Notes under the pieces: generated by a model
Told to the model about the DNA's origin: nothing
Database searches by the model: none
The model's input: only the letters and a program-made list of their open reading frames with translations
Part shown: positions 41,843 through 53,390 of the stretch, one piece after another
Numbering within the stretch: position 1 is the first letter of the stretch
Layout: every line of letters begins with the position of its first letter
Program-made: the position numbers and the translations under genes
NCBI GenBank assembly: GCA_947503765.1
Contig: CANNFA010000005.1
Location: 124,001-188,000, forward strand
Direction of reading: 5' to 3'
DNA length: 64,000 nucleotides
Source of the DNA: an uncultured Paracoccaceae bacterium
GTDB lineage: Bacteria > Pseudomonadota > Alphaproteobacteria > Rhodobacterales > Rhodobacteraceae

Positions 41843-42877
41843 ATGACCAATAGAAGAACCCTGCTTGGAGTTGCCGCCGCCGCGGCGATGGCGGCCGGAC
41901 TGCCCGGAACGGCGTCGGCGGCCGAATTCGAATATACCCTGCAAAGCTTTCTTCCGGCGCAGGCGACCATTCCGGCGATGATCATCGACGTGTGGGCCGA
42001 CAAGGTCGAGGAGGCGTCGGACGGGCGGATCGAGATCACGCGCCATGCCTCGATGCAGCTTGGCGGCAAGCCGCCCGAGCTTTACGACCAGGCGATCGAC
42101 GGGATGCTCGACATCACCTGGAACGTGAACGGCTATACGCCCGGACGGTTCCCGCGCAGCGAGGTGTTCGAGCTGCCGTTCATGGTGACCAATGCCGCCG
42201 CCGCCTCGGCCGCCTACTGGACGATGATGGAAAAGGACTTCCAGAATTCGGAATTCCAGGATCTCAAGGTTCTGGGCGTCTGGGTGCACGGGCCCGGTGT
42301 GATCCATTCCAACAAGCCGGTCACGGAAATCGCCGACATGAACGGCATGAAGATCCGCGGCCCGTCGCGGCTTGCCAATGCGCTGCTCGAAGAGCTGGGC
42401 GCGACACCGGTCGGCATGCCGATCCCGTCGGTGCCGGAGGCGCTGTCCAAGGGCGTGATCGACGCGGCCATGGTCCCGTGGGAAGTGACGCGGGCGCTGA
42501 AGACATCGGAACTGGTGGATAACCACACCGAATTCACCGGCGAGATGCCCTATACCGTGACCTTCGTGCTGGCGATGAACCAGGGCAAGTTCGATGCCCT
42601 GCCCGAGGATCTGCAAAAGGTCATCATGGACAATTCGGCCATGGGATTCTCGGTCTTTGCCGGCACCACCCAGGCCGGCGAGGATACGCCGGGCCGCGAT
42701 GCCGCGATCGCGCTTGGCAACAACGTCATCACCCTTGACGAGGCGCAATCGGACGTCTGGGCCGAGGCCGCGCAGCCGGTCTACGAGCAATGGGTCGCAG
42801 AGATGGACGCCAAGGGCATCGACGGACAGGCCCTGATCGACGAGGCCAGAGCCCTGATGGCCGAGTACGGTAAATAA
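41843..42877 (+). CDS. TRAP transporter substrate-binding protein (DctP)
   Basis: Periplasmic binding protein of 344 residues. The signal peptide MTNRRTLLGVAAAAAMAAG has an RRTLLG motif and likely ends TASA. The mature part begins AEFEYTLQSFLPAQATIPAM; the ligand-arginine region is MNGMKIRGPSRLANALLEELG near residue 170. A strong AAGGGAGGAC site precedes the ATG. Followed by DctQ and DctM, then benzoate-CoA ligase, so benzoate or a related aromatic acid is the likely cargo; that is inferred from location. Confidence 0.88.
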   Translation: MTNRRTLLGVAAAAAMAAGLPGTASAAEFEYTLQSFLPAQATIPAMIIDVWADKVEEASDGRIEITRHASMQLGGKPPELYDQAIDGMLDITWNVNGYTPGRFPRSEVFELPFMVTNAAAASAAYWTMMEKDFQNSEFQDLKVLGVWVHGPGVIHSNKPVTEIADMNGMKIRGPSRLANALLEELGATPVGMPIPSVPEALSKGVIDAAMVPWEVTRALKTSELVDNHTEFTGEMPYTVTFVLAMNQGKFDALPEDLQKVIMDNSAMGFSVFAGTTQAGEDTPGRDAAIALGNNVITLDEAQSDVWAEAAQPVYEQWVAEMDAKGIDGQALIDEARALMAEYGK

Positions 42878-42883
42878 GCGGGC

Positions 42884-42912
42884 CCGCCGCGCCGTCACAC
42901 ATGGCGCGGCGG
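42884..42912 (+). terminator. Intercistronic hairpin after dctP
   Basis: CCGCCGCGCC and GGCGCGGCGG form a perfect 10-bp stem with a 9-base loop, beginning seven bases after the binding-protein stop codon. It matches in position, not sequence, the hairpins after the other binding-protein genes. Confidence 0.6.
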
Positions 42913-42946
42913 CCATTTGCGAAACGCACAGAATCCGGGGTTCTCC

Positions 42947-43528
42947 ATGCACCGATTTATGGAACGGCTGGCCCGCGTCATGGCGGCACTGGGCGGGCTT
43001 GTGCTTTCTTCTCTGATCATCGTGACCTGCCTGTCGGTCCTGGGGCGCGTCCTGAACACCGTTCTGCACGGCTGGATCGGCACGCTGGCGCCGGGGGCGT
43101 CGCAGGCGCTGCTCGACCTGGGCGTGGGGCCGATCCTGGGCGATTTCGAACTGGTCGAGGCCGGGGTCGCCTTTGCCATCTTCGCCTTCATGCCGCTGTG
43201 CCAGATCAGTGCGGGCCATGCCAGCGTCGATCTGCTGACCAACATGCTGGGGCCGCGTACCAACCGGTTCCTGCAGATGGTGATCGACATCGTCTTTGCG
43301 GTGGCGCTGATCCTGATCGCGGTCAAGCTGTATGACGGGCTGCTGGCGAAACGCCGATACGGCGAGACGACCTTCCTGCTCCAGTTTCCGATCTGGTGGT
43401 CCTATGCGGCCAGCCTGTTCGCCGCGTCCATCGGCGCGCTGGCCGGGGTCTATGTCGCCATTGTCCGCTGTGTCGAATTCGCCACCGGCAAGAGCATTCT
43501 CAACGGCGGCAGCGGAGCCGAAGCATGA
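42947..43528 (+). CDS. TRAP transporter small permease (DctQ)
   Basis: Membrane protein of 193 residues with four hydrophobic segments and GPILGDFELVEAGVAFAIFAF in the middle, the DctQ-like acidic helix start. I use the ATG at 42947, after CCGGGGTT, rather than a TTG ten codons upstream. The stop overlaps the DctM start (ATGA). Confidence 0.86.
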   Translation: MHRFMERLARVMAALGGLVLSSLIIVTCLSVLGRVLNTVLHGWIGTLAPGASQALLDLGVGPILGDFELVEAGVAFAIFAFMPLCQISAGHASVDLLTNMLGPRTNRFLQMVIDIVFAVALILIAVKLYDGLLAKRRYGETTFLLQFPIWWSYAASLFAASIGALAGVYVAIVRCVEFATGKSILNGGSGAEA

Positions 43529-44838
43529 GCGATTTCCAGACCGGCCTGCTGTCGTTCCCGGTGCTGATGGTCCTGATCTTTCTGCGCATCCCGATCGGAC
43601 TGGCGATGTTCATCGTCGGACTTGTCGGGGTCGCGATCGTGACCGGCAACCCGAACATGGCGCTGATCCGCCTCAAGAGCGAGACCTACTCCACCTTCTC
43701 GTCCTATTCGCTGAGCATCGTGCCGATGTTCCTGCTGATGGGCTATTTCGCCACGCTGGGCGGAATGAGCACGGCGCTGTTCAAGGCGGCCGAGGGCATG
43801 CTGGGCCACCGGCGCGGCGGGGTGGCCATGGCGGCGATCGGCGCCTGTGCCGGGTTCGGCGCGATCTGCGGCTCCAGCCTGGCGACGGCGGCCACGATGG
43901 GCCGGGTCGCGCTGCCCGAACTGAAACGCTATGGCTATGCGGGCGGGTTTTCCACCGCGACCCTGGCGGCGGGCGGCACGCTGGGCATCCTGATCCCGCC
44001 CTCGGTCGTGCTGGTGATCTATGCGATCCTGACCGAACAGAACATCGCCAAGCTGTTCCTTGCCGCCTTTGTTCCGGGTCTTCTGGCCACCTTCGGCTAT
44101 TTCGTCGCCATCTCGATCTATGTGCGGGTGCATCCCGATTCGGCCGGCACAAAGCCGCCGGCGCCGATGGCCGACCGGATCCGCGCGCTGATCGACGTCT
44201 GGCCGGTGCTGCTGGTCTTCGGGCTGGTGGTGGGCGGCATCTATCTTGGCTGGTTCACCCCGACCGAAGGCGCGGCGGTGGGCGCGCTGGGAACCGGGGT
44301 AATCGCGCTGCTCAATGGCGGGCTGACATGGTCGACGCTGATGGACAGCTTCTATGTCACCGGGCGCTCGACGGCGATGGTGTTCTTCATCGTGCTGGGC
44401 GCGGCGTTCTACAACGGCTTTCTGGCGCTCAGCCAGGTGCCGCAGCAGATGTCGGAATACGTGGTCAGCCAGGGGTTCAGCCCGTGGCTCGTGCTGTCGA
44501 TCATCCTGATCTTCTACCTGATCTTCGGCTGCCTGATGGACAGCCTGTCGATGATCCTGCTGACCGTGCCGATCTTCTTTCCGGTCGTGTCGGTGCTGGA
44601 TTTCGGAATGAGCCCCGAACACCTGGCGATCTGGTTCGGCATCCTGGTGCTGATCGTGGTCGAGGTCGGGCTGATCACGCCGCCGGTGGGGATGAACCTG
44701 TTCATCATCAACACGATGGATCCCAGGACACCCATCGTCGAGACCTACAAGGCCGTCTTCTATTTCGTCGCCACCGACATCGTGCGGGTCGTCATCCTGG
44801 TGCTGTTCCCGGCGATCACGCTGTTCCTGATACCGTGA
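43525..44838 (+). CDS. TRAP transporter large permease (DctM)
   Basis: Membrane protein of 437 residues. Conserved segments include SIVPMFLLMGYFA near residue 65, GFGAICGSSLATAATMGRVALPE near 110, GGTLGILIPPSVVLVIYA near 152 and a late ITPPVGMNLFIIN. It completes the second TRAP system and is followed after 31 bases by benzoate-CoA ligase. Confidence 0.92.
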   Translation: MSDFQTGLLSFPVLMVLIFLRIPIGLAMFIVGLVGVAIVTGNPNMALIRLKSETYSTFSSYSLSIVPMFLLMGYFATLGGMSTALFKAAEGMLGHRRGGVAMAAIGACAGFGAICGSSLATAATMGRVALPELKRYGYAGGFSTATLAAGGTLGILIPPSVVLVIYAILTEQNIAKLFLAAFVPGLLATFGYFVAISIYVRVHPDSAGTKPPAPMADRIRALIDVWPVLLVFGLVVGGIYLGWFTPTEGAAVGALGTGVIALLNGGLTWSTLMDSFYVTGRSTAMVFFIVLGAAFYNGFLALSQVPQQMSEYVVSQGFSPWLVLSIILIFYLIFGCLMDSLSMILLTVPIFFPVVSVLDFGMSPEHLAIWFGILVLIVVEVGLITPPVGMNLFIINTMDPRTPIVETYKAVFYFVATDIVRVVILVLFPAITLFLIP

Positions 44839-44869: not shown

Positions 44870-46420
44870 ATGACCGGGTCACAGAACGCAGCCGCCTGGT
44901 TCGTCGACCGGCACCTGGCAGAGGGGCGGGCGGACAAGACCGCCTTCCGCGAGGCCGACGGCGCAAGGCGCGCCCTGACATATGGCGAATTGTCCGAGCG
45001 GAGCGCGCGCTTTGCCGGGGCGCTGGCGCGGGCCGGAATTCACCGCGAGGAACGGATCGCGCTGATCCTGCGCGACCAGATCGAGTTTCCGGTCGCGTTC
45101 TTCGGGGCGATGAAGGCCGGCGTGGTCCCGGTGCCGCTGAACACGCTGCTCTCGGGCGAGGTCTATGGCAACATCCTGAACGATTGCCGCCCCGCGCTGG
45201 TGGTCGTGTCGGCCGAGATGTGGGACGCGGTGGCCGCTGCCGTGGCCGGAAACGACCATGTGCGCGAGGTCATCGTGGTCGGCGATGCGCCGAAGGGCAT
45301 GCTGGACATGGACGGTTTCGTCCGGGATGCCCCCGCTGCCCCCCCGGTCGAGGTTTGCGGCGACGAACTGGCCTTCTGGCTCTATTCTTCGGGCTCGACG
45401 GGGCTGCCCAAGGGCGTGCGGCATGTCCATTCCAGCATGCAGGCCACGGCGGAGACCTTCGGCCGGCAGGTGATCGACATCCGCGAGGACGACACCGTCT
45501 TTTCGGTGGCCAAGATGTTCTTTGCCTACGGGCTGGGCAACGCGCTCAGTTTTCCCATGTCGGTCGGGGCCACCACCGTATTGCTGGGCGGGCGCCCGAC
45601 GCCGGATGCGGTGTTCGACATCTTCGCCACCGAAGAACCGACGGTCTTTTGCGGGGTGCCCACCTTTTTTGCCGCGCTGAACGCGGCGCGGGCGGGAAGG
45701 GACGACAAACCTGTCTCGAAACTGCGCATCTGCACCTCGGCCGGAGAGGCACTGCCGCGCGAGGTCGGCGAAAGCTGGCGCCGCGCTTGGGGGGTCGATA
45801 TCGTCGATGGCGTCGGCTCTACCGAGATGCTGCACATCTTCCTGTCGAACCGGCCCGGCGATATCGAATACGGCACATCCGGCACCGCGGTGCCCGGCTA
45901 CGAGGTGCGGCTGGTGGATGAGCACGGCGCCGAACCCGCTTTGGGCGAGATCGGCGAATTGCTGGTGCGCGGGCCGTCCTCTGCCGACGGCTACTGGAAC
46001 CGCCGCGACAAGTCGCGCACTACGTTCGAGGGGCATTGGACCCGCACCGGCGACAAGTACGAGTGCCGCGCCGATGGCCGCTATGTCTATTGCGGGCGCA
46101 CGGACGACATGTTCAAGGTCTCGGGCATCTGGCTGTCCCCGTTCGAGGTGGAACAGACGCTGGTCGAACATCCGCGCGTGCTGGAAGCGGCGGTCGTGCC
46201 GTGGCGCGGCGATGACGGGCTGGAAAAGCCCAAGGCCTATGTCGTGCTGAAACCCGGCGGCGAGGCCAAGTTTGGCGCCGATCTGGCCGAGGATCTCAAG
46301 GCTTTCGTGAAGGACCGGATCGGGATGTGGAAATATCCCCGCTGGATCGAGGTGGTCGAGGATTTGCCGAAAACCGCCACCGGCAAGATCCAGCGTTTCA
46401 GATTGAGGCAGGAGGCATGA
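44870..46420 (+). CDS. bclA: Benzoate-CoA ligase
   Basis: AMP-forming ligase of 516 residues making benzoyl-CoA. The AMP motif YSSGSTGLPKGVRHVHSS lies near residue 170, the benzoate-ligase segment VAKMFFAYGLGNALSFPM near 208, GVGSTEMLHIF near 310, and the catalytic C-terminal lysine in PKTATGKIQRFRLR at the end. It differs from the ligase at 38953 in the pocket-like stretch FAYGLGN versus FAYGHGA and lacks that protein's tail. It lies directly upstream of box genes, which need benzoyl-CoA. A GGAGGATAAC site precedes the ATG. Confidence 0.9.
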   Translation: MTGSQNAAAWFVDRHLAEGRADKTAFREADGARRALTYGELSERSARFAGALARAGIHREERIALILRDQIEFPVAFFGAMKAGVVPVPLNTLLSGEVYGNILNDCRPALVVVSAEMWDAVAAAVAGNDHVREVIVVGDAPKGMLDMDGFVRDAPAAPPVEVCGDELAFWLYSSGSTGLPKGVRHVHSSMQATAETFGRQVIDIREDDTVFSVAKMFFAYGLGNALSFPMSVGATTVLLGGRPTPDAVFDIFATEEPTVFCGVPTFFAALNAARAGRDDKPVSKLRICTSAGEALPREVGESWRRAWGVDIVDGVGSTEMLHIFLSNRPGDIEYGTSGTAVPGYEVRLVDEHGAEPALGEIGELLVRGPSSADGYWNRRDKSRTTFEGHWTRTGDKYECRADGRYVYCGRTDDMFKVSGIWLSPFEVEQTLVEHPRVLEAAVVPWRGDDGLEKPKAYVVLKPGGEAKFGADLAEDLKAFVKDRIGMWKYPRWIEVVEDLPKTATGKIQRFRLRQEA

Positions 46421-47265: not shown

Positions 47266-47368
47266 GCGTCGCCGCAGGGATCGGCGGGCATGAAGATGCA
47301 AGATTGTCCAAGGCAAGGGTGAAATATGCGCATCATACTGCACTTTTTCGTTGCCTCTGGCAAAAACA

Positions 47369-47384
47369 CTGCAATATAGTGCAG
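47369..47384. promoter_or_regulatory. BoxR/BzdR-type operator TGCA-N6-TGCA at boxC promoter
   Basis: CTGCAATATAGTGCAG contains TGCA, six bases, TGCA, the arrangement reported for BzdR/BoxR operators, and is also an imperfect palindrome (14 of 16 positions). It overlaps TATAGT at 47375-47380, which sits 18 bases after TTGCCT (47351-47356), so binding would cover the -10. Further single TGCA copies lie at 47297 and 47339. boxC starts 45 bases downstream. Confidence 0.65.
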
Positions 47385-47428
47385 ATATCCGAACGCGGTA
47401 TCGTGCCGAGCAACAGGAGACGCCGCCC

Positions 47429-49081
47429 ATGGCCGGAAAGATCGACTTTCAGACCGATCCGTCGCGATATCGTCATTGGCGGGTCGAATATGACGGGCCG
47501 GTCGCCAATCTGTTCATGGATGTGGACGAGGATGGCGGGCTGTTCGACGGCTACCAGCTCAAGCTGAATTCCTACGATCTGGGCGTCGATATCGAACTGG
47601 CCGATATCGTGCAGCGGATGCGGTTCGAACATCCCGAGATCCGGGTCGTGGTCCTGCAATCGGGCAAGGCCGGGGTGTTCTGCGCCGGGGCCAATATCCG
47701 GATGCTGGCCGGGGCCAACCATGGGCACAAGGTCAATTTCTGCAAGTTCACCAATGAAACCCGCAACGCGATGGAAGCGGCAGAGGCCGATTCGGGGCAG
47801 AAATACATCGCCGCGATCAAGGGCACCTGCGCGGGTGGCGGCTATGAACTGGCGCTGGCCTGCAACCACATAATGCTGACCGATGACGCGACATCCTCGG
47901 TGTCGCTGCCCGAGGTGCCGCTGCTGGCGGTGCTGCCGGGAACCGGCGGGCTGACGCGGGTGACCGACAAGCGCCGGGTGCGCCGCGACCGCGCCGATAT
48001 CTTCTGCTCCACCGAGGAGGGGGTGAAGGGAAAGCGCGCCGCCGAGTGGCGCCTGGTCGACGAGGTGGTGGCGAATTCGACCTTTGACGAAACGGTGCAG
48101 GAACGGGCGCGCGAATTCGCCGGCGAGGGGCGGGATGTGCAGGGCATCGCGCTCGGCTCGCTGGACCGGACCTTCGGCGCGGACGGATCGGTGCGCTATT
48201 CCACGCTGGAGGTGGAACTGGACCGCGCCGCGCGCAAGGCGACGATCACCATCAACGGCCCCGAAGAGGACGCGCCCGCCGACATGGAATCCTTTGCCGC
48301 GCAGGAGGGTGCCGCCTGGATGCTGCGGCTGGCGCGCGAGTTGGACGACGCGATCCTGCATCTGCGCTTCAACGAGATGGAGGCGGGGCTGTGGGTGCTG
48401 CGCAGCCAGGGCGATGCGAGCCGCGTGATCGCGCATGAGGCGCTGCTGACCGACAATGCCGACCACTGGCTGGCGCGCGAGGTGCTGCAGCTCTGGAAAC
48501 GGGTGCTCAAACGGCTCGACGTGACCTCGCGCAGTCTGGCGGCCCTGGTCGAGAACGGATCGTGCTTTGCCGGCATCCTGGCCGAGATCCTGTTCGCGGT
48601 GGATCGCTGCTACATGATGGAGGGCGAATTCGACGGCGACAATCGCCCTGGCGCAGCGGTGACGCTGACCGGGGTCAATTTCGGACGGCTGCCGATGGGC
48701 AACGGGCTGACCCGGCTGGAGACACGGTTTTTCGGAGAGCCGGGCGCGGTGGAAAGGGCGCGTGCCGAAATCGGCGTGCCGCTGGAGGCCGAAGAGGCCG
48801 AGGCGCTGGAACTGGTGACGATGATCCTGGACGATATCGACTGGGACGACGAGATCCGCATCTTCATGGAAGAGCGCGCCAGCTATTCGCCCGATGCGAT
48901 GACCGGGATGGAGGCCAACCTGCGCTTTGCCGGTCCCGAAACCATGGAAACCCGGATCTTCGGGCGGCTGACCGCCTGGCAGAACTGGATTTTCCAGCGG
49001 CCGAACGCGGTGGGCAAGGACGGTGCGCTGCAGCGCTACGGCACCGGCAAGCGCGGCGATTACAACATGGAACGTGTGTAG
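47429..49081 (+). CDS. boxC: 2,3-epoxybenzoyl-CoA dihydrolase BoxC
   Basis: Ring-opening enzyme of 550 residues of the aerobic benzoyl-CoA epoxide pathway. It uses two waters to convert 2,3-epoxybenzoyl-CoA to 3,4-dehydroadipyl-CoA semialdehyde and formate. It is a crotonase-fold protein: GVFCAGANIRMLAGANHGHK near residue 90, oxyanion region IKGTCAGGGYELALACNHIM near 132 and SLPEVPLLAVLPGTGGLTRV near 155. The long C-terminal part (NGSCFAGILAEILFAVDRCY) is specific to BoxC. ATG at 47429 after CAGGAGAC. It heads the boxC-boxB-orf-boxA-thioesterase-boxR run. Confidence 0.95.
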   Translation: MAGKIDFQTDPSRYRHWRVEYDGPVANLFMDVDEDGGLFDGYQLKLNSYDLGVDIELADIVQRMRFEHPEIRVVVLQSGKAGVFCAGANIRMLAGANHGHKVNFCKFTNETRNAMEAAEADSGQKYIAAIKGTCAGGGYELALACNHIMLTDDATSSVSLPEVPLLAVLPGTGGLTRVTDKRRVRRDRADIFCSTEEGVKGKRAAEWRLVDEVVANSTFDETVQERAREFAGEGRDVQGIALGSLDRTFGADGSVRYSTLEVELDRAARKATITINGPEEDAPADMESFAAQEGAAWMLRLARELDDAILHLRFNEMEAGLWVLRSQGDASRVIAHEALLTDNADHWLAREVLQLWKRVLKRLDVTSRSLAALVENGSCFAGILAEILFAVDRCYMMEGEFDGDNRPGAAVTLTGVNFGRLPMGNGLTRLETRFFGEPGAVERARAEIGVPLEAEEAEALELVTMILDDIDWDDEIRIFMEERASYSPDAMTGMEANLRFAGPETMETRIFGRLTAWQNWIFQRPNAVGKDGALQRYGTGKRGDYNMERV

Positions 49082-49126
49082 GGGCGGGGCCGTCCCGCCA
49101 CCCGGCAGATCACAGCGGAGAGACCA

Positions 49127-50578
49127 ATGAGCGACCTTGTGAACGTAAGCTACGACACCCGGATCCCCAACAATGTCGGGCTCAGCTCTGACCGCAAGGT
49201 GCTGAAGGCGCTGGAAAAATGGCATCCGGGCTATATCAGCTGGTGGAACGACCTGATCCCGCAAAAATTCCAGGAATCGCTGATCTACCTGCGCACCGCC
49301 GTCAGCGTCGATCCCAAGGGCTGGGCCAAGTTCGATTACGTGAAGATGCCCGAATATCGTTGGGGCATCCTGCTGGCCCCCGCCGTCGAGGATCGGCGCA
49401 TTCCGTGCGGCGAGCATCTGGGACAGCCCGCCTGGCAGGAGGTGCCGGGCGAATACCGCAACATGTTGAAGCGGCTGATCGTGATCCAGGGCGATACGGA
49501 ACCGGCCAGCGTCGAACAGCAGCGCTGGCTGGGCCAGACCGCGCCCTCGCTCTACGACATGCGCAACCTGTTCCAGGTCAATGTCGAGGAGGGGCGGCAC
49601 CTGTGGGCGATGGTCTACCTGCTGCAGAAATATTTCGGCAAGGACGGGCGCGAAGAGGCCGACGATCTGCTGCGCCGCTCGTCCGGCTCGGAAGAGGCGC
49701 CGCGCATGCTGGGCGCCTTCAACGAGGAAACGCCCGACTGGCTGTCCTTCTTCATGTTCACCTATTTCACCGACCGCGACGGCAAGATGCAGCTGGAAAG
49801 CCTGGCGCAATCCGGCTTCGACCCGCTCAGCCGCACCTGCCGTTTCATGCTGACCGAGGAAGCGCATCACATGTTCGTCGGCGAGACCGGCGTCGGCCGC
49901 ACCATCCAGCGCACCTGCGAGGCGATGAACGAGGCGGGCATCACCGATCCCTTCGACACCGACCGGATCCGCGCGCTGGGGGTGATCGACCTGCCGACCA
50001 TCCAGAAGAAGCTGAACCTGCATTACACCCTGTCGCTGGACCTGTTCGGCCAGGAGGTGTCGACCAATGCCGCCAATGCCTTCAATGCCGGCATCAAGGG
50101 CCGCTACATGGAACAGAAGATCGACGACGACCACCAGCTGGCCGGCGATACCTACCGGGTCTGGGACATGGTGGATGGCAAGCTGGTGCAGCATGACGTG
50201 CCGGCGCTGACCGCGATCAACATGCGCCTGCGCGACGATTACACCCGCGACGCGGCCGGCGGGGTCGGGCGCTGGAACAAGATCATCGAGAAGGCCGGGA
50301 TAGAGTTTCGCCTGAAGCTGCCGCATGAAAGCTTCAACCGCAAGATCGGCGTCTTCTCCGGGCATAATTTCGACCCCAACGGCAACCTGCTGGACGGCGC
50401 GGCCTATGACGCCGGTCTGGCCGAATGGCTGCCGACCCGTGCCGATGGCGATTTCATCGCCTCGCTGATGGTTCCCGTCACCGAGCCGGGTCAATATGCC
50501 GGCTGGATCGCGCCGCCCAAGGTCGGTATCGACAACAAGCCGGGCGACTTCGAATATGTTCAGTTGCATATGGCCTGA
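49127..50578 (+). CDS. boxB: Benzoyl-CoA 2,3-epoxidase oxygenase subunit BoxB
   Basis: Diiron oxygenase of 483 residues that epoxidises benzoyl-CoA with O2 and electrons from BoxA. Two E-x-x-H iron-binding motifs are visible, E155-G-R-H158 and E245-A-H-H248, with further acidic candidates between. The sequence begins VNVSYDTRIPNNVGLSSDRK, characteristic of BoxB. A separate short ORF lies between this gene and boxA. A GCGGAGAG site precedes the ATG. Confidence 0.95.
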   Translation: MSDLVNVSYDTRIPNNVGLSSDRKVLKALEKWHPGYISWWNDLIPQKFQESLIYLRTAVSVDPKGWAKFDYVKMPEYRWGILLAPAVEDRRIPCGEHLGQPAWQEVPGEYRNMLKRLIVIQGDTEPASVEQQRWLGQTAPSLYDMRNLFQVNVEEGRHLWAMVYLLQKYFGKDGREEADDLLRRSSGSEEAPRMLGAFNEETPDWLSFFMFTYFTDRDGKMQLESLAQSGFDPLSRTCRFMLTEEAHHMFVGETGVGRTIQRTCEAMNEAGITDPFDTDRIRALGVIDLPTIQKKLNLHYTLSLDLFGQEVSTNAANAFNAGIKGRYMEQKIDDDHQLAGDTYRVWDMVDGKLVQHDVPALTAINMRLRDDYTRDAAGGVGRWNKIIEKAGIEFRLKLPHESFNRKIGVFSGHNFDPNGNLLDGAAYDAGLAEWLPTRADGDFIASLMVPVTEPGQYAGWIAPPKVGIDNKPGDFEYVQLHMA

Positions 50579-50630
50579 TCTCGGGCCCGATCCGAGGCCC
50601 CAGCCACCCAGACCCAGACCGGAGGACGCA

Positions 50631-50810
50631 ATGTTGATCGACCGCGCCCAGGCCCCGACACCGCGCACCGAAGCGCTGGCCCGCGACGTGGCGCGGCTGC
50701 ACGGTCAATGCGTCGGCTGCACCGATTGCCGGGGTGTTTGCCAGGTATTGCTGGATACGCTGGTCGTGCCGGGCCTTGTCCTGGGGGCGGGGCAGGGACG
50801 CCAGGAATGA
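50631..50810 (+). CDS. Small Cys-rich ORF between boxB and boxA
   Basis: Fifty-nine residues starting MLIDRAQAPTPRTEALARD. The centre holds CVGCTDCRGVC, a C-x2-C-x2-C-x3-C pattern at about residues 27-37 that could bind a metal or Fe-S cluster. A strong GGAGGACGCA site precedes the ATG, and its TGA overlaps the boxA ATG (50807-50810), so boxA translation probably depends on it. I do not recognise a named family; similar short QCVGC-type proteins may exist in related bacteria. Ribosome-binding site, coupling and Cys spacing argue for a real gene. Confidence 0.68.
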   Translation: MLIDRAQAPTPRTEALARDVARLHGQCVGCTDCRGVCQVLLDTLVVPGLVLGAGQGRQE

Positions 50811-52000
50811 CCAAGCCGCTGAAACAGCACCTGATCGACCCGGAAATCTGCATCCGCTGCTATACCTGCGAGATGACCTGCACCGTGGGCGCGATCAGCC
50901 ATGACGACAACAATGTCGTGGTCGATGCCGACAAATGCGGCTTCTGCATGGATTGCATTCCGGTCTGCCCGACCGGTTCCATCGACGAATGGCGCGTGGT
51001 CGAAACCCCCTATTCGCTGGAGGACCAGTTCGGATGGGAGGAATTGCCGGGCCAGCAGGAGATCGGCGAAAGCGCGGGCGAGGCCGAAACCGGGCTGGAG
51101 GCCTTCGACGAGGCGATCGCGGCCCTGCTGGCCGATGCGCACAAGGGGGCCGGCGGCAAGGCCCGCGCCCCGGCCAGCGCGGCCAAGCCGACCATCAACA
51201 TGTACAACCTGGCCAAGCCGGCCGAGGCCACCGTTCAGGGCAATTACCGCCTGACCCAGGATCCCGACCATGACGTGCGCCATATCATCCTGAATTTCGG
51301 CACGCTGCCCTTTCCGGTTCTGGAAGGGCAGAGCATCGGCATCATCCCGCCCGGACAGGATGCCGAGGGCAAGCCGCATCTGCCACGACTTTATTCCGTG
51401 TCCAGCCCGCGCGACGGCGAGCGGCCGAATTTCAACAACCTGTCGCTGACCGTCAAGCGCGAGCCCGGCGGGCTGTGCTCGAACCATGTCTGCGATCTGG
51501 CCAAGGGCGACAAGGTGCAGGTGACCGGCCCGTTCGGCGCGACCTTCCTGATGCCCGAGGATGCGCGCGCGCGGCTGCTGATGATCTGCACCGGCACCGG
51601 TTCGGCGGCGTTCCGCGCCTTTACCATGCGTCGCCAGCGCAGCACCGGCGCGAAAAGCGGCGGAATGACCATGTTCTTCGGCGCGCGCAATCCCGAATGC
51701 CTGCCCTATTTCGGCCCGCTGGCCAAGGTGCCCGAGACGCTGCTGTGCAAGCACATGGTGTTCAGTCGGACACCCGGCGCGGCCAGGGAATACGTGCAGG
51801 ACCGGATGCGCGCCCAGTCCGGGGCGGTGGCCGATCTGCTGGCCGATCCGAACACTCATATCTATATCTGCGGTCTGCGCGGGATGGAGGAGGGCGTCGA
51901 AGCCGCCCTGACCGGCATCGCCGAAGGGATCGGCCGCGACTGGACGACATTGCGCGACGAAATGCGCGGCGAGGGCCGCTATCATGTGGAGACCTACTGA
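50807..52000 (+). CDS. boxA: Benzoyl-CoA 2,3-epoxidase reductase subunit BoxA
   Basis: NADPH-dependent reductase of 397 residues feeding electrons to BoxB. Two [4Fe-4S] motifs sit at the N terminus: Cys15-18-21-25 and Cys44-47-50-54. An Ala-rich linker (about 95-130) leads to a ferredoxin-NADP reductase domain with RLYSVSSPRDGE near residue 190 (FAD) and ICTGTGSAAFRAF near 262 (NADP). It ends in EGRYHVETY, typical of this reductase fold. Start overlaps the small Cys-rich ORF. Confidence 0.95.
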   Translation: MTKPLKQHLIDPEICIRCYTCEMTCTVGAISHDDNNVVVDADKCGFCMDCIPVCPTGSIDEWRVVETPYSLEDQFGWEELPGQQEIGESAGEAETGLEAFDEAIAALLADAHKGAGGKARAPASAAKPTINMYNLAKPAEATVQGNYRLTQDPDHDVRHIILNFGTLPFPVLEGQSIGIIPPGQDAEGKPHLPRLYSVSSPRDGERPNFNNLSLTVKREPGGLCSNHVCDLAKGDKVQVTGPFGATFLMPEDARARLLMICTGTGSAAFRAFTMRRQRSTGAKSGGMTMFFGARNPECLPYFGPLAKVPETLLCKHMVFSRTPGAAREYVQDRMRAQSGAVADLLADPNTHIYICGLRGMEEGVEAALTGIAEGIGRDWTTLRDEMRGEGRYHVETY

Positions 52001-52002
52001 CC

Positions 52003-52485
52003 ATGGATGCACGGCCCGAAAGCCAGACCGATACCGAAACCGGGACCGGCAGCGCGCCCGCGCCCTTCATCCACGAGGTCCGCGTCGGCTGGGGCCATTG
52101 CGACCCGGCGCGCATCGCCTATACCGGCCATATTCCCGGCTTCGCGCTGGAGGCGATCGACGCCTGGTGGCAGGCGCATCTGGGCGGCGACGGCTGGTTC
52201 GAGATCAACATGGACCGCAATGTCGGCACGCCCTTCGTGCATCTGAGCTTCGATTTCAGCGCGCCGATCACGCCGCGTCACATGCTGATCTGCGAAGTGG
52301 CACCGATGCGGCTGGGCACCAAATCCATCGAGTTCCGGGTGATCGGCCGGCAGGACGGCAGGCAATGTTTCATCGGCCGGTTCGTCTGCGTCTTCGTGAT
52401 CTCTGACCGGCACGGCGTGTCGATCCCGGCGCCGCAGGACATCCGCGCCATGGTCGAGCCGCTATTGCCCGGCGCCGCTTCGTGA
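52003..52485 (+). CDS. 4-hydroxybenzoyl-CoA thioesterase-family protein
   Basis: Hotdog-fold thioesterase of 160 residues. The active-site segment GWGHCDPARIAYTG near residues 29-42 matches the GHCDP(A)xIxY pattern of Pseudomonas-type 4-hydroxybenzoyl-CoA thioesterases, whose Asp is catalytic. The first 20 residues are a Glu/Thr/Pro-rich tail. It lies between boxA and boxR and overlaps boxR by TGATG. It probably releases CoA from dead-end or excess aryl-CoA; the actual substrate is inferred. Confidence 0.85.
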   Translation: MDARPESQTDTETGTGSAPAPFIHEVRVGWGHCDPARIAYTGHIPGFALEAIDAWWQAHLGGDGWFEINMDRNVGTPFVHLSFDFSAPITPRHMLICEVAPMRLGTKSIEFRVIGRQDGRQCFIGRFVCVFVISDRHGVSIPAPQDIRAMVEPLLPGAAS

Positions 52486-53390
52486 TGGACCGCAAAGGCG
52501 GCATCGCGGCCCCTGCGCCGGACCCGGATCCGGTGCCCGACCCCGCCGATCTGATCGTGCGGGTGGGCGAAAGGGTGCGCCGCGCGCGCGAGGCGAAGGG
52601 CATGCCGCGCCGGGTGCTGTCGGAACGGTCCGGCGTCTCGCCGCGCTATCTGGCGCAGCTTGAAACCGGGGCGGGCAACATCTCCATCGGGCTCTTGCAG
52701 CGCGTGGCGGCTGCGCTGGATCACCGGATCGAATGGTTCGTCGGCGAGGCCGATGCCTGGACCTCGGAGACGATGCGCATCGCCGATCTGTACCACCGCG
52801 CCGACGCGCAGGTGCAGGACCAGGTGCTGGAATTGCTCGGCTCGCACCAGCCGCAGGCGCGGCGCGCCCGGCGGATCTGTCTGCTGGGGCTGCGCGGGGC
52901 CGGCAAATCGACGCTGGGCGCGCTGGCCGGCAAGGCGCTGGACATGCCGTTCGTGCAGCTCAACCACCAGATCGAGGATCAAAGCGGCATCCCCGTGGCC
53001 GAGGTCATGGCGCTCTACGGCCCCGAAGGCTATCGCAAGCTGGAGGCCCAGGCGCTGCGCCATGTCGTGGCCACGCAGGACCGGCTGATCTTGGAGGTGG
53101 CCGGCGGGGTCGTCAGCGATCCGGTGATCTTCGGCAGCCTGCTGAACGATTTTCACACGATCTGGCTGCGCGCCGCCCCCGAGGATCACATGGCCCGCGT
53201 CCGCGCCCAGGGCGACGAGCGCCCGATGACAGGCAATCCCGAAGCGATGGCGCAGCTCCGCTCGATCCTGACCAGCCGCGAGGCGATCTATGACCGCGCC
53301 CAGGCCCGGCTGGACACGGCCGGAAAAAGCGTGGAGCAATCGCTGGACGAGTTGCTGGCGCTGATCGAAACGCAGCATTTCCTGGCCTGA
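52485..53390 (+). CDS. boxR: BoxR/BzdR-type regulator (XRE domain fused to shikimate-kinase-like domain)
   Basis: Regulator of 301 residues. A Pro-rich tail precedes an XRE helix-turn-helix (about 25-85: GERVRRAREAKGMPRRVLSE, GVSPRYLAQLETG). Residues about 130-300 are a shikimate-kinase-like sensor with Walker A GLRGAGKST at 135-143. In BoxR/BzdR this domain binds benzoyl-CoA and releases the operator. Last gene of the boxC operon; the candidate operator is at 47369-47384. The start at 52485 overlaps the thioesterase stop; a GTG one codon upstream is possible. Confidence 0.93.
   Translation: MDRKGGIAAPAPDPDPVPDPADLIVRVGERVRRAREAKGMPRRVLSERSGVSPRYLAQLETGAGNISIGLLQRVAAALDHRIEWFVGEADAWTSETMRIADLYHRADAQVQDQVLELLGSHQPQARRARRICLLGLRGAGKSTLGALAGKALDMPFVQLNHQIEDQSGIPVAEVMALYGPEGYRKLEAQALRHVVATQDRLILEVAGGVVSDPVIFGSLLNDFHTIWLRAAPEDHMARVRAQGDERPMTGNPEAMAQLRSILTSREAIYDRAQARLDTAGKSVEQSLDELLALIETQHFLA

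Follow-up and report, generated by a model that had tools for sequence, protein, structure and literature searches.

A conserved four-cysteine microprotein gene linked to boxB in Rhodobacteraceae

The aerobic benzoyl-CoA (box) pathway has so far been described with BoxA and BoxB as its epoxidation components. For the BoxAB chemistry no third reaction component has been described besides BoxC, the contact between BoxA and BoxB is transient, and BoxA is needed in small amounts (PMC4498308). The homologous epoxidase served by PaaD needs this protein in vivo, whereas in vitro it is dispensable; a function in maturation is assumed for PaaD (PMC4498308; PMC9493321). Here we analysed a window of 64 kb, the whole stretch of DNA under study, in which a small Cys-rich open reading frame (ORF) lies between boxB and boxA, and compared this locus with other genomes.

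A small coding gene between boxB and boxA

The ORF had been singled out in an earlier note on this DNA. The coordinates, strand, length of 59 aa, ribosome-binding site, CVGCTDCRGVC sequence and overlap of its stop with the boxA ATG given there agreed with the sequence, and its position between boxB and boxA was confirmed by the TIGR03225 and TIGR03224 matches of the flanking genes (Table 1). A profile of the family matched the small ORF in its own genome with E = 1.6e-21. Six-frame translation of the window contained the C..C..C.G.C motif once.

Table 1. Features of the box cluster and of the small gene in the window.
Feature	Position	Strand	Basis and remarks
Probable TRAP transporter large permease	43396..44838	+	Name from sequence
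Probable benzoate-CoA ligase, upstream cluster gene	44870..46420	+	Name from sequence and context
boxC	47429..49081	+	TIGR03222, E = 8e-287
boxB, benzoyl-CoA 2,3-epoxidase di-iron subunit	49127..50578	+	TIGR03225, 907 bits (cutoff 499), E = 2.3e-273
Shine-Dalgarno GGAGG	50621..50625	+	5 nt ahead of ATG 50631
Small Cys4 protein gene	50631..50810	+	59 aa, MLIDRAQAPTPRTEALARDVARLHGQCVGCTDCRGVCQVLLDTLVVPGLVLGAGQGRQE; conserved ORF, purifying selection
CVGCTDCRGVC, a C-x2-C-x2-C-x-G-x-C motif	50709..50741	+	Cys 27, 30, 33, 37; Gly 35
Predicted second helix, conserved L40, P47, L51	50736..50789	+	Family pattern LI[DE]xxxLPDxVL; alignment and AlphaFold2
ATGA, overlap of small-ORF TGA stop and boxA start codon, 4 nt	50807..50810	+	Sequence
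boxA, 2x[4Fe-4S] FAD reductase	50807..52000	+	TIGR03224, 524 bits (cutoff 459), E = 2.1e-157; both CxxCxxCxxxC motifs intact
4HBT_2 thioesterase	52003..52485	+	PF13279, E = 3e-08
BzdR/BoxR-type regulator (HTH and shikimate-kinase-like domain)	52482..53390	+	NF006015, E = 1.3e-109

Orthologues of the ligase gene of the window precede other box clusters and share 63-69% identity with it. Judged from its sequence, the TRAP permease gene together with positions 41843-43528 likely encodes an aromatic-acid uptake system. On the minus strand, positions 47333-50668 hold an open frame of 1111 aa antisense to boxC-boxB, which is probably a mirror ORF arising from high GC and not a gene.

A family search, a set of 80 boxB loci taken from genome contigs and a scripted survey returned a homologous ORF directly 3' of boxB in 81 non-redundant boxB loci, with a median length of 57 aa. 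The start codon was ATG in 79 of these 81 loci and a Shine-Dalgarno match of at least 4 nt was found in 75 of them, while the exact ATGA overlap occurred in 49 of the 70 loci with an adjacent boxA. At two loci (L098 and L196) about 330 nt separate the small ORF from boxA, and the stretch in L098 contains an open frame (about 110 aa). Across 11 close pairs dN/dS was 0.12-0.60, and the substitutions at codon positions 1, 2 and 3 numbered 142, 95 and 263. The small protein is under purifying selection. Cys 27, 30, 33 and 37, Gly 35 and Pro 47 were invariant columns in a 52-row alignment (A1), the invariance of the cysteines being partly by construction because the ORF collector demanded the Cys motif. 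In a less biased profile search the boxB-adjacent matches kept all four cysteines, with a frameshifted copy in G009 as the sole exception.

That frameshift is a single-base change at a G run in the small ORF of a boxB genome (G009/L027) and is possibly a sequencing error. The earlier note had named an absent or frameshifted ORF at identical boxB-boxA spacing in close relatives as evidence against its reading, and this was seen at that one locus only. In the nearest BoxB relatives without the small ORF (L034 and L039) the gap between boxB and boxA was correspondingly short. Another frameshifted copy (L026/L146) was found in a genome without boxB (G144). A random ORF was ruled out by the dN/dS values, the Cys conservation and the retention of the ORF without an adjacent boxA; the small ORF is a genuine protein-coding gene and not a chance ORF.

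Linkage to boxB and distribution across genomes

The small gene is co-translated with boxA, yet its gene order and inheritance tie it to boxB. It was retained in about ten loci without an adjacent boxA. In G081 both boxA and boxC are on another contig and the small ORF remains with boxB, and in G581 boxA is on a contig separate from boxB and the small ORF. Ten loci (L072, L076, L077, L087, L092, L100, L149, L150, L175 and L228) were found to carry, directly 3' of boxB and in the place of boxA, a flavodoxin gene (PF00258; about 152 aa). A Cys4 variant, C-x3-C-x2-C-x-G-x-C, lies between boxB and the flavodoxin gene in six of these ten. No BoxA above the cutoff was detected in the eight flavodoxin-type genomes tested (six together with G140 and G056), an absence that is provisional for those that are metagenome assemblies. 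The flavodoxin loci suggest a different electron donor for BoxB. As the Cys4 variant is kept beside the flavodoxin gene, the small protein is independent of which reductase serves BoxB, and since the small ORF follows boxB where boxA is elsewhere or replaced, an accessory of BoxB is favoured over a partner of BoxA. A partner subunit of BoxA would be linked to boxA, but in G081, G581 and the flavodoxin loci the small ORF is with boxB. The tie to the box operon drawn in the earlier note holds for a genuine, conserved and co-translated Cys4 protein, but the link is to boxB and not to boxA.

Among 387 Rhodobacteraceae genomes, boxB was found above the cutoff in 80, one of which (G748) has its boxB cut by a contig end. 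The profile placed the small ORF directly downstream of boxB in 58 of these 80 genomes, and a divergent Cys4 variant behind boxB in G643 raises the boxB-linked total to at least 59. Strong profile matches were present in 56 genomes with boxB and 8 without, and lacking in 24 with boxB and 299 without, which corresponds to a co-occurrence with a Fisher p of 2e-39. The small ORF was thus absent from 299 of the 307 boxB-less genomes of the family, and it lies directly behind boxB in 59 of the approximately 67 genomes that carry the gene. Up to 21 of the 80 boxB genomes of the family, about a quarter, showed no small ORF next to boxB.

In 385 genomes sampled across the class, the small ORF had no convincing match outside Rhodobacteraceae, and all sampled boxB loci of Rhizobiales, Bradyrhizobium and Granulosicoccaceae were without it. 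In searches of plasmids, the only boxB genes came from Mycetohabitans and actinobacteria, and the small ORF had no homologue there. Among the genomes sampled here the family is confined to Rhodobacteraceae. The statement of the earlier note that standard box operons do not contain such a gene was correct for the sampled Rhizobiales, Bradyrhizobium and Granulosicoccaceae, but in Rhodobacteraceae its presence is the norm. A BoxB tree was built rapidly with FastTree from 111 rows, and many of its forks are weak; on this tree presence and absence of the small ORF switch at least 16 times, so the gene has seemingly been lost or gained repeatedly. Alignment columns of BoxB that track the presence of the small ORF were dropped, as they look phylogenetic (Bradyrhizobium and kin). 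A core component of the box pathway would be present wherever boxB is, and the small ORF is not, in the family or in the sampled loci outside it. The small protein is not essential to the box pathway.

Seven intact copies were found in genomes without detectable boxB. Three of them (G107, G194 and G671) come directly after orthologues of the TRAP genes of the window, the permease orthologues adjoining the copies. The others follow an AraC regulator (G642) or an HpcH-type aldolase (G620), adjoin tungstate ABC transporter-like genes (G736), or lie between ileS and an isocitrate-dehydrogenase-like gene in a genome of the same genus as the window (G153); except for the AraC regulator and DUF309 neighbours, the names of the neighbouring genes at the boxB-less copies were read from sequence. 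PaaA is encoded in four of the seven genomes. A search for boxC in all seven gave no match, but the controls were also silent, so that its absence is not proven. In G787 a second cluster without boxB (L169) consists of TRAP-PQM, SDR and AMP-forming ligase genes, a Cys4 small ORF, BzdR and a FadB fragment. The boxB-less copies may be left over from box clusters that were lost, or they may point to a wider role. Because seven of them are intact, BoxB cannot be the sole possible target of the small protein.

Motif and predicted fold of the small protein

No family in Pfam, NCBIfam or PHROG covers the small protein, and a DUF59/SufT-like domain was not matched in it with Pfam or NCBIfam. The literature on the box genes, in the portion covered here, contains no mention of such a protein. 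It appears to represent a previously unnamed and apparently undescribed family of 50-60 residues. The motif weakly matched individual halves of [4Fe-4S] ferredoxins and of PsaC, with 15.5 bits for Fer4_21 (cutoff 35) and 13.3 bits for Fer4_2 (cutoff 24.5), and the best ferredoxin E-values across the family were 0.002 or weaker. A 2[4Fe-4S] ferredoxin of the Fer4 clan was rejected, since one motif is present and not two, no Pro follows the fourth Cys and the scores are below the curated cutoffs checked.

The small protein has four conserved cysteines as candidate ligands, a conservation that is in part by construction of the search. The proposal of the earlier note that this is a small metal or Fe-S binding protein is consistent with the ferredoxin-like motif, and a single [4Fe-4S] cluster or some other iron or metal site at the four cysteines is the most likely reading. 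AlphaFold2 predicted helices at residues 11-22 and 36-52 with a mean pLDDT of 68. A second member was modelled with the same layout of helix, Cys loop and helix, both models being of low confidence (pLDDT 66-68). A deeper alignment made with another query did not improve the model confidence, and the low-confidence model matched nothing in a fold search of the PDB.

Possible role beside the di-iron epoxidase

We tentatively propose, by analogy with PaaD, that the small protein is a metal or Fe-S accessory that helps the di-iron centre of BoxB to mature or maintains the redox state of this centre. It would be an accessory of the epoxidase and not a catalytic subunit, and in vivo it would load iron into the di-iron centre, or keep this centre reduced or repair it, in the way supposed for PaaD and the related phenylacetyl-CoA epoxidase. 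We favour such an accessory since the gene accompanies boxB whichever reductase is present and many lineages do without it, and a non-catalytic helper fits with the lack of a described third reaction component. The narrower version, in which this half-ferredoxin microprotein family would be devoted to maturing or repairing BoxB as a lineage-specific extra component working with BoxA or flavodoxin, is more doubtful. Against a strict BoxB role stand the boxB genomes without the gene, about a quarter, and the seven intact boxB-less copies.

A ferredoxin-like carrier with a single cluster, supplying BoxB with electrons taken from BoxA or, at loci lacking boxA, from flavodoxin, would agree with the Cys spacing, with the position of the gene between those of oxygenase and reductase and with its retention beside both reductase types. 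We nevertheless regard such a carrier as unlikely. BoxA already has two [4Fe-4S] clusters and small amounts of it suffice for BoxB turnover (PMC4498308); with a transient BoxA-BoxB contact and little BoxA needed, the known facts call for no further carrier. Many close relatives that have both boxB and boxA lack the small ORF. In a canonical ferredoxin site the fourth ligand comes from a second motif, which the small protein does not have. It is comparably improbable that the small protein has a wider target, such as another di-iron enzyme (for example PaaA) or iron and Fe-S homeostasis, and was recruited into the box operon in most lineages. The intact boxB-less copies with their diverse neighbours, the extra copy beside BzdR in G787 and the presence of PaaA in four of seven boxB-less genomes point in this direction. 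However, most genomes with the gene (59 of about 67) carry it directly behind boxB, several of the boxB-less copies adjoin remnants of box clusters (TRAP, BzdR) and may be relics, and the boxB-less copy of G144 is frameshifted.

An even smaller chance is given to a regulator of the pathway, which might for instance sense redox state or iron and act on BzdR/BoxR or on uptake. A small Cys4 protein with BzdR or TRAP neighbours at some boxB-less loci could be read in this way, but a DNA-binding domain was not found in it and of all its neighbours boxB, and not bzdR, is the strongest and most constant. That the ORF is only a leader for translational coupling of boxA, with an irrelevant peptide, is very improbable. 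The frequent ATGA overlap would suit a leader, whereas the amino-acid conservation with dN/dS below 1 and the persistence of the ORF in loci without an adjacent boxA do not, and RNA folding at both junctions was no better than in shuffled sequences, with no significant structure. The leader peptide was rejected on dN/dS, Cys conservation and this persistence.

The preferred reading, an accessory of BoxB, suggests a so far unrecognised accessory step in the box pathway, which may be di-iron loading, repair or electron supply. Close relatives that differ in having the gene or not, or in having BoxA or flavodoxin, offer a natural comparison for its function. The parallel is with PaaD. Both are small extra proteins encoded with a CoA-ester di-iron epoxidase, but PaaD (of paaABCDE) has about 170 aa and a DUF59 (DUF59/SufT-like) domain, whereas the small protein has about 57 aa and belongs to another family. 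With bacterial 2[4Fe-4S] ferredoxins and PsaC it shares the C-x2-C-x2-C-x3-C spacing and usually a Gly before the second Cys, but it has a single motif and no Cys-Pro after the fourth Cys; in contrast to the ferredoxin beta fold it is helical in the low-confidence models, and it scores below the curated cutoffs. The N-terminal ferredoxin domain of BoxA (CIRCYTCEMTC) has the same Cys spacing and is encoded in the same operon. BoxA, however, has two complete motifs and an FNR-like module, and no similarity to the small protein was seen other than in the Cys spacing.
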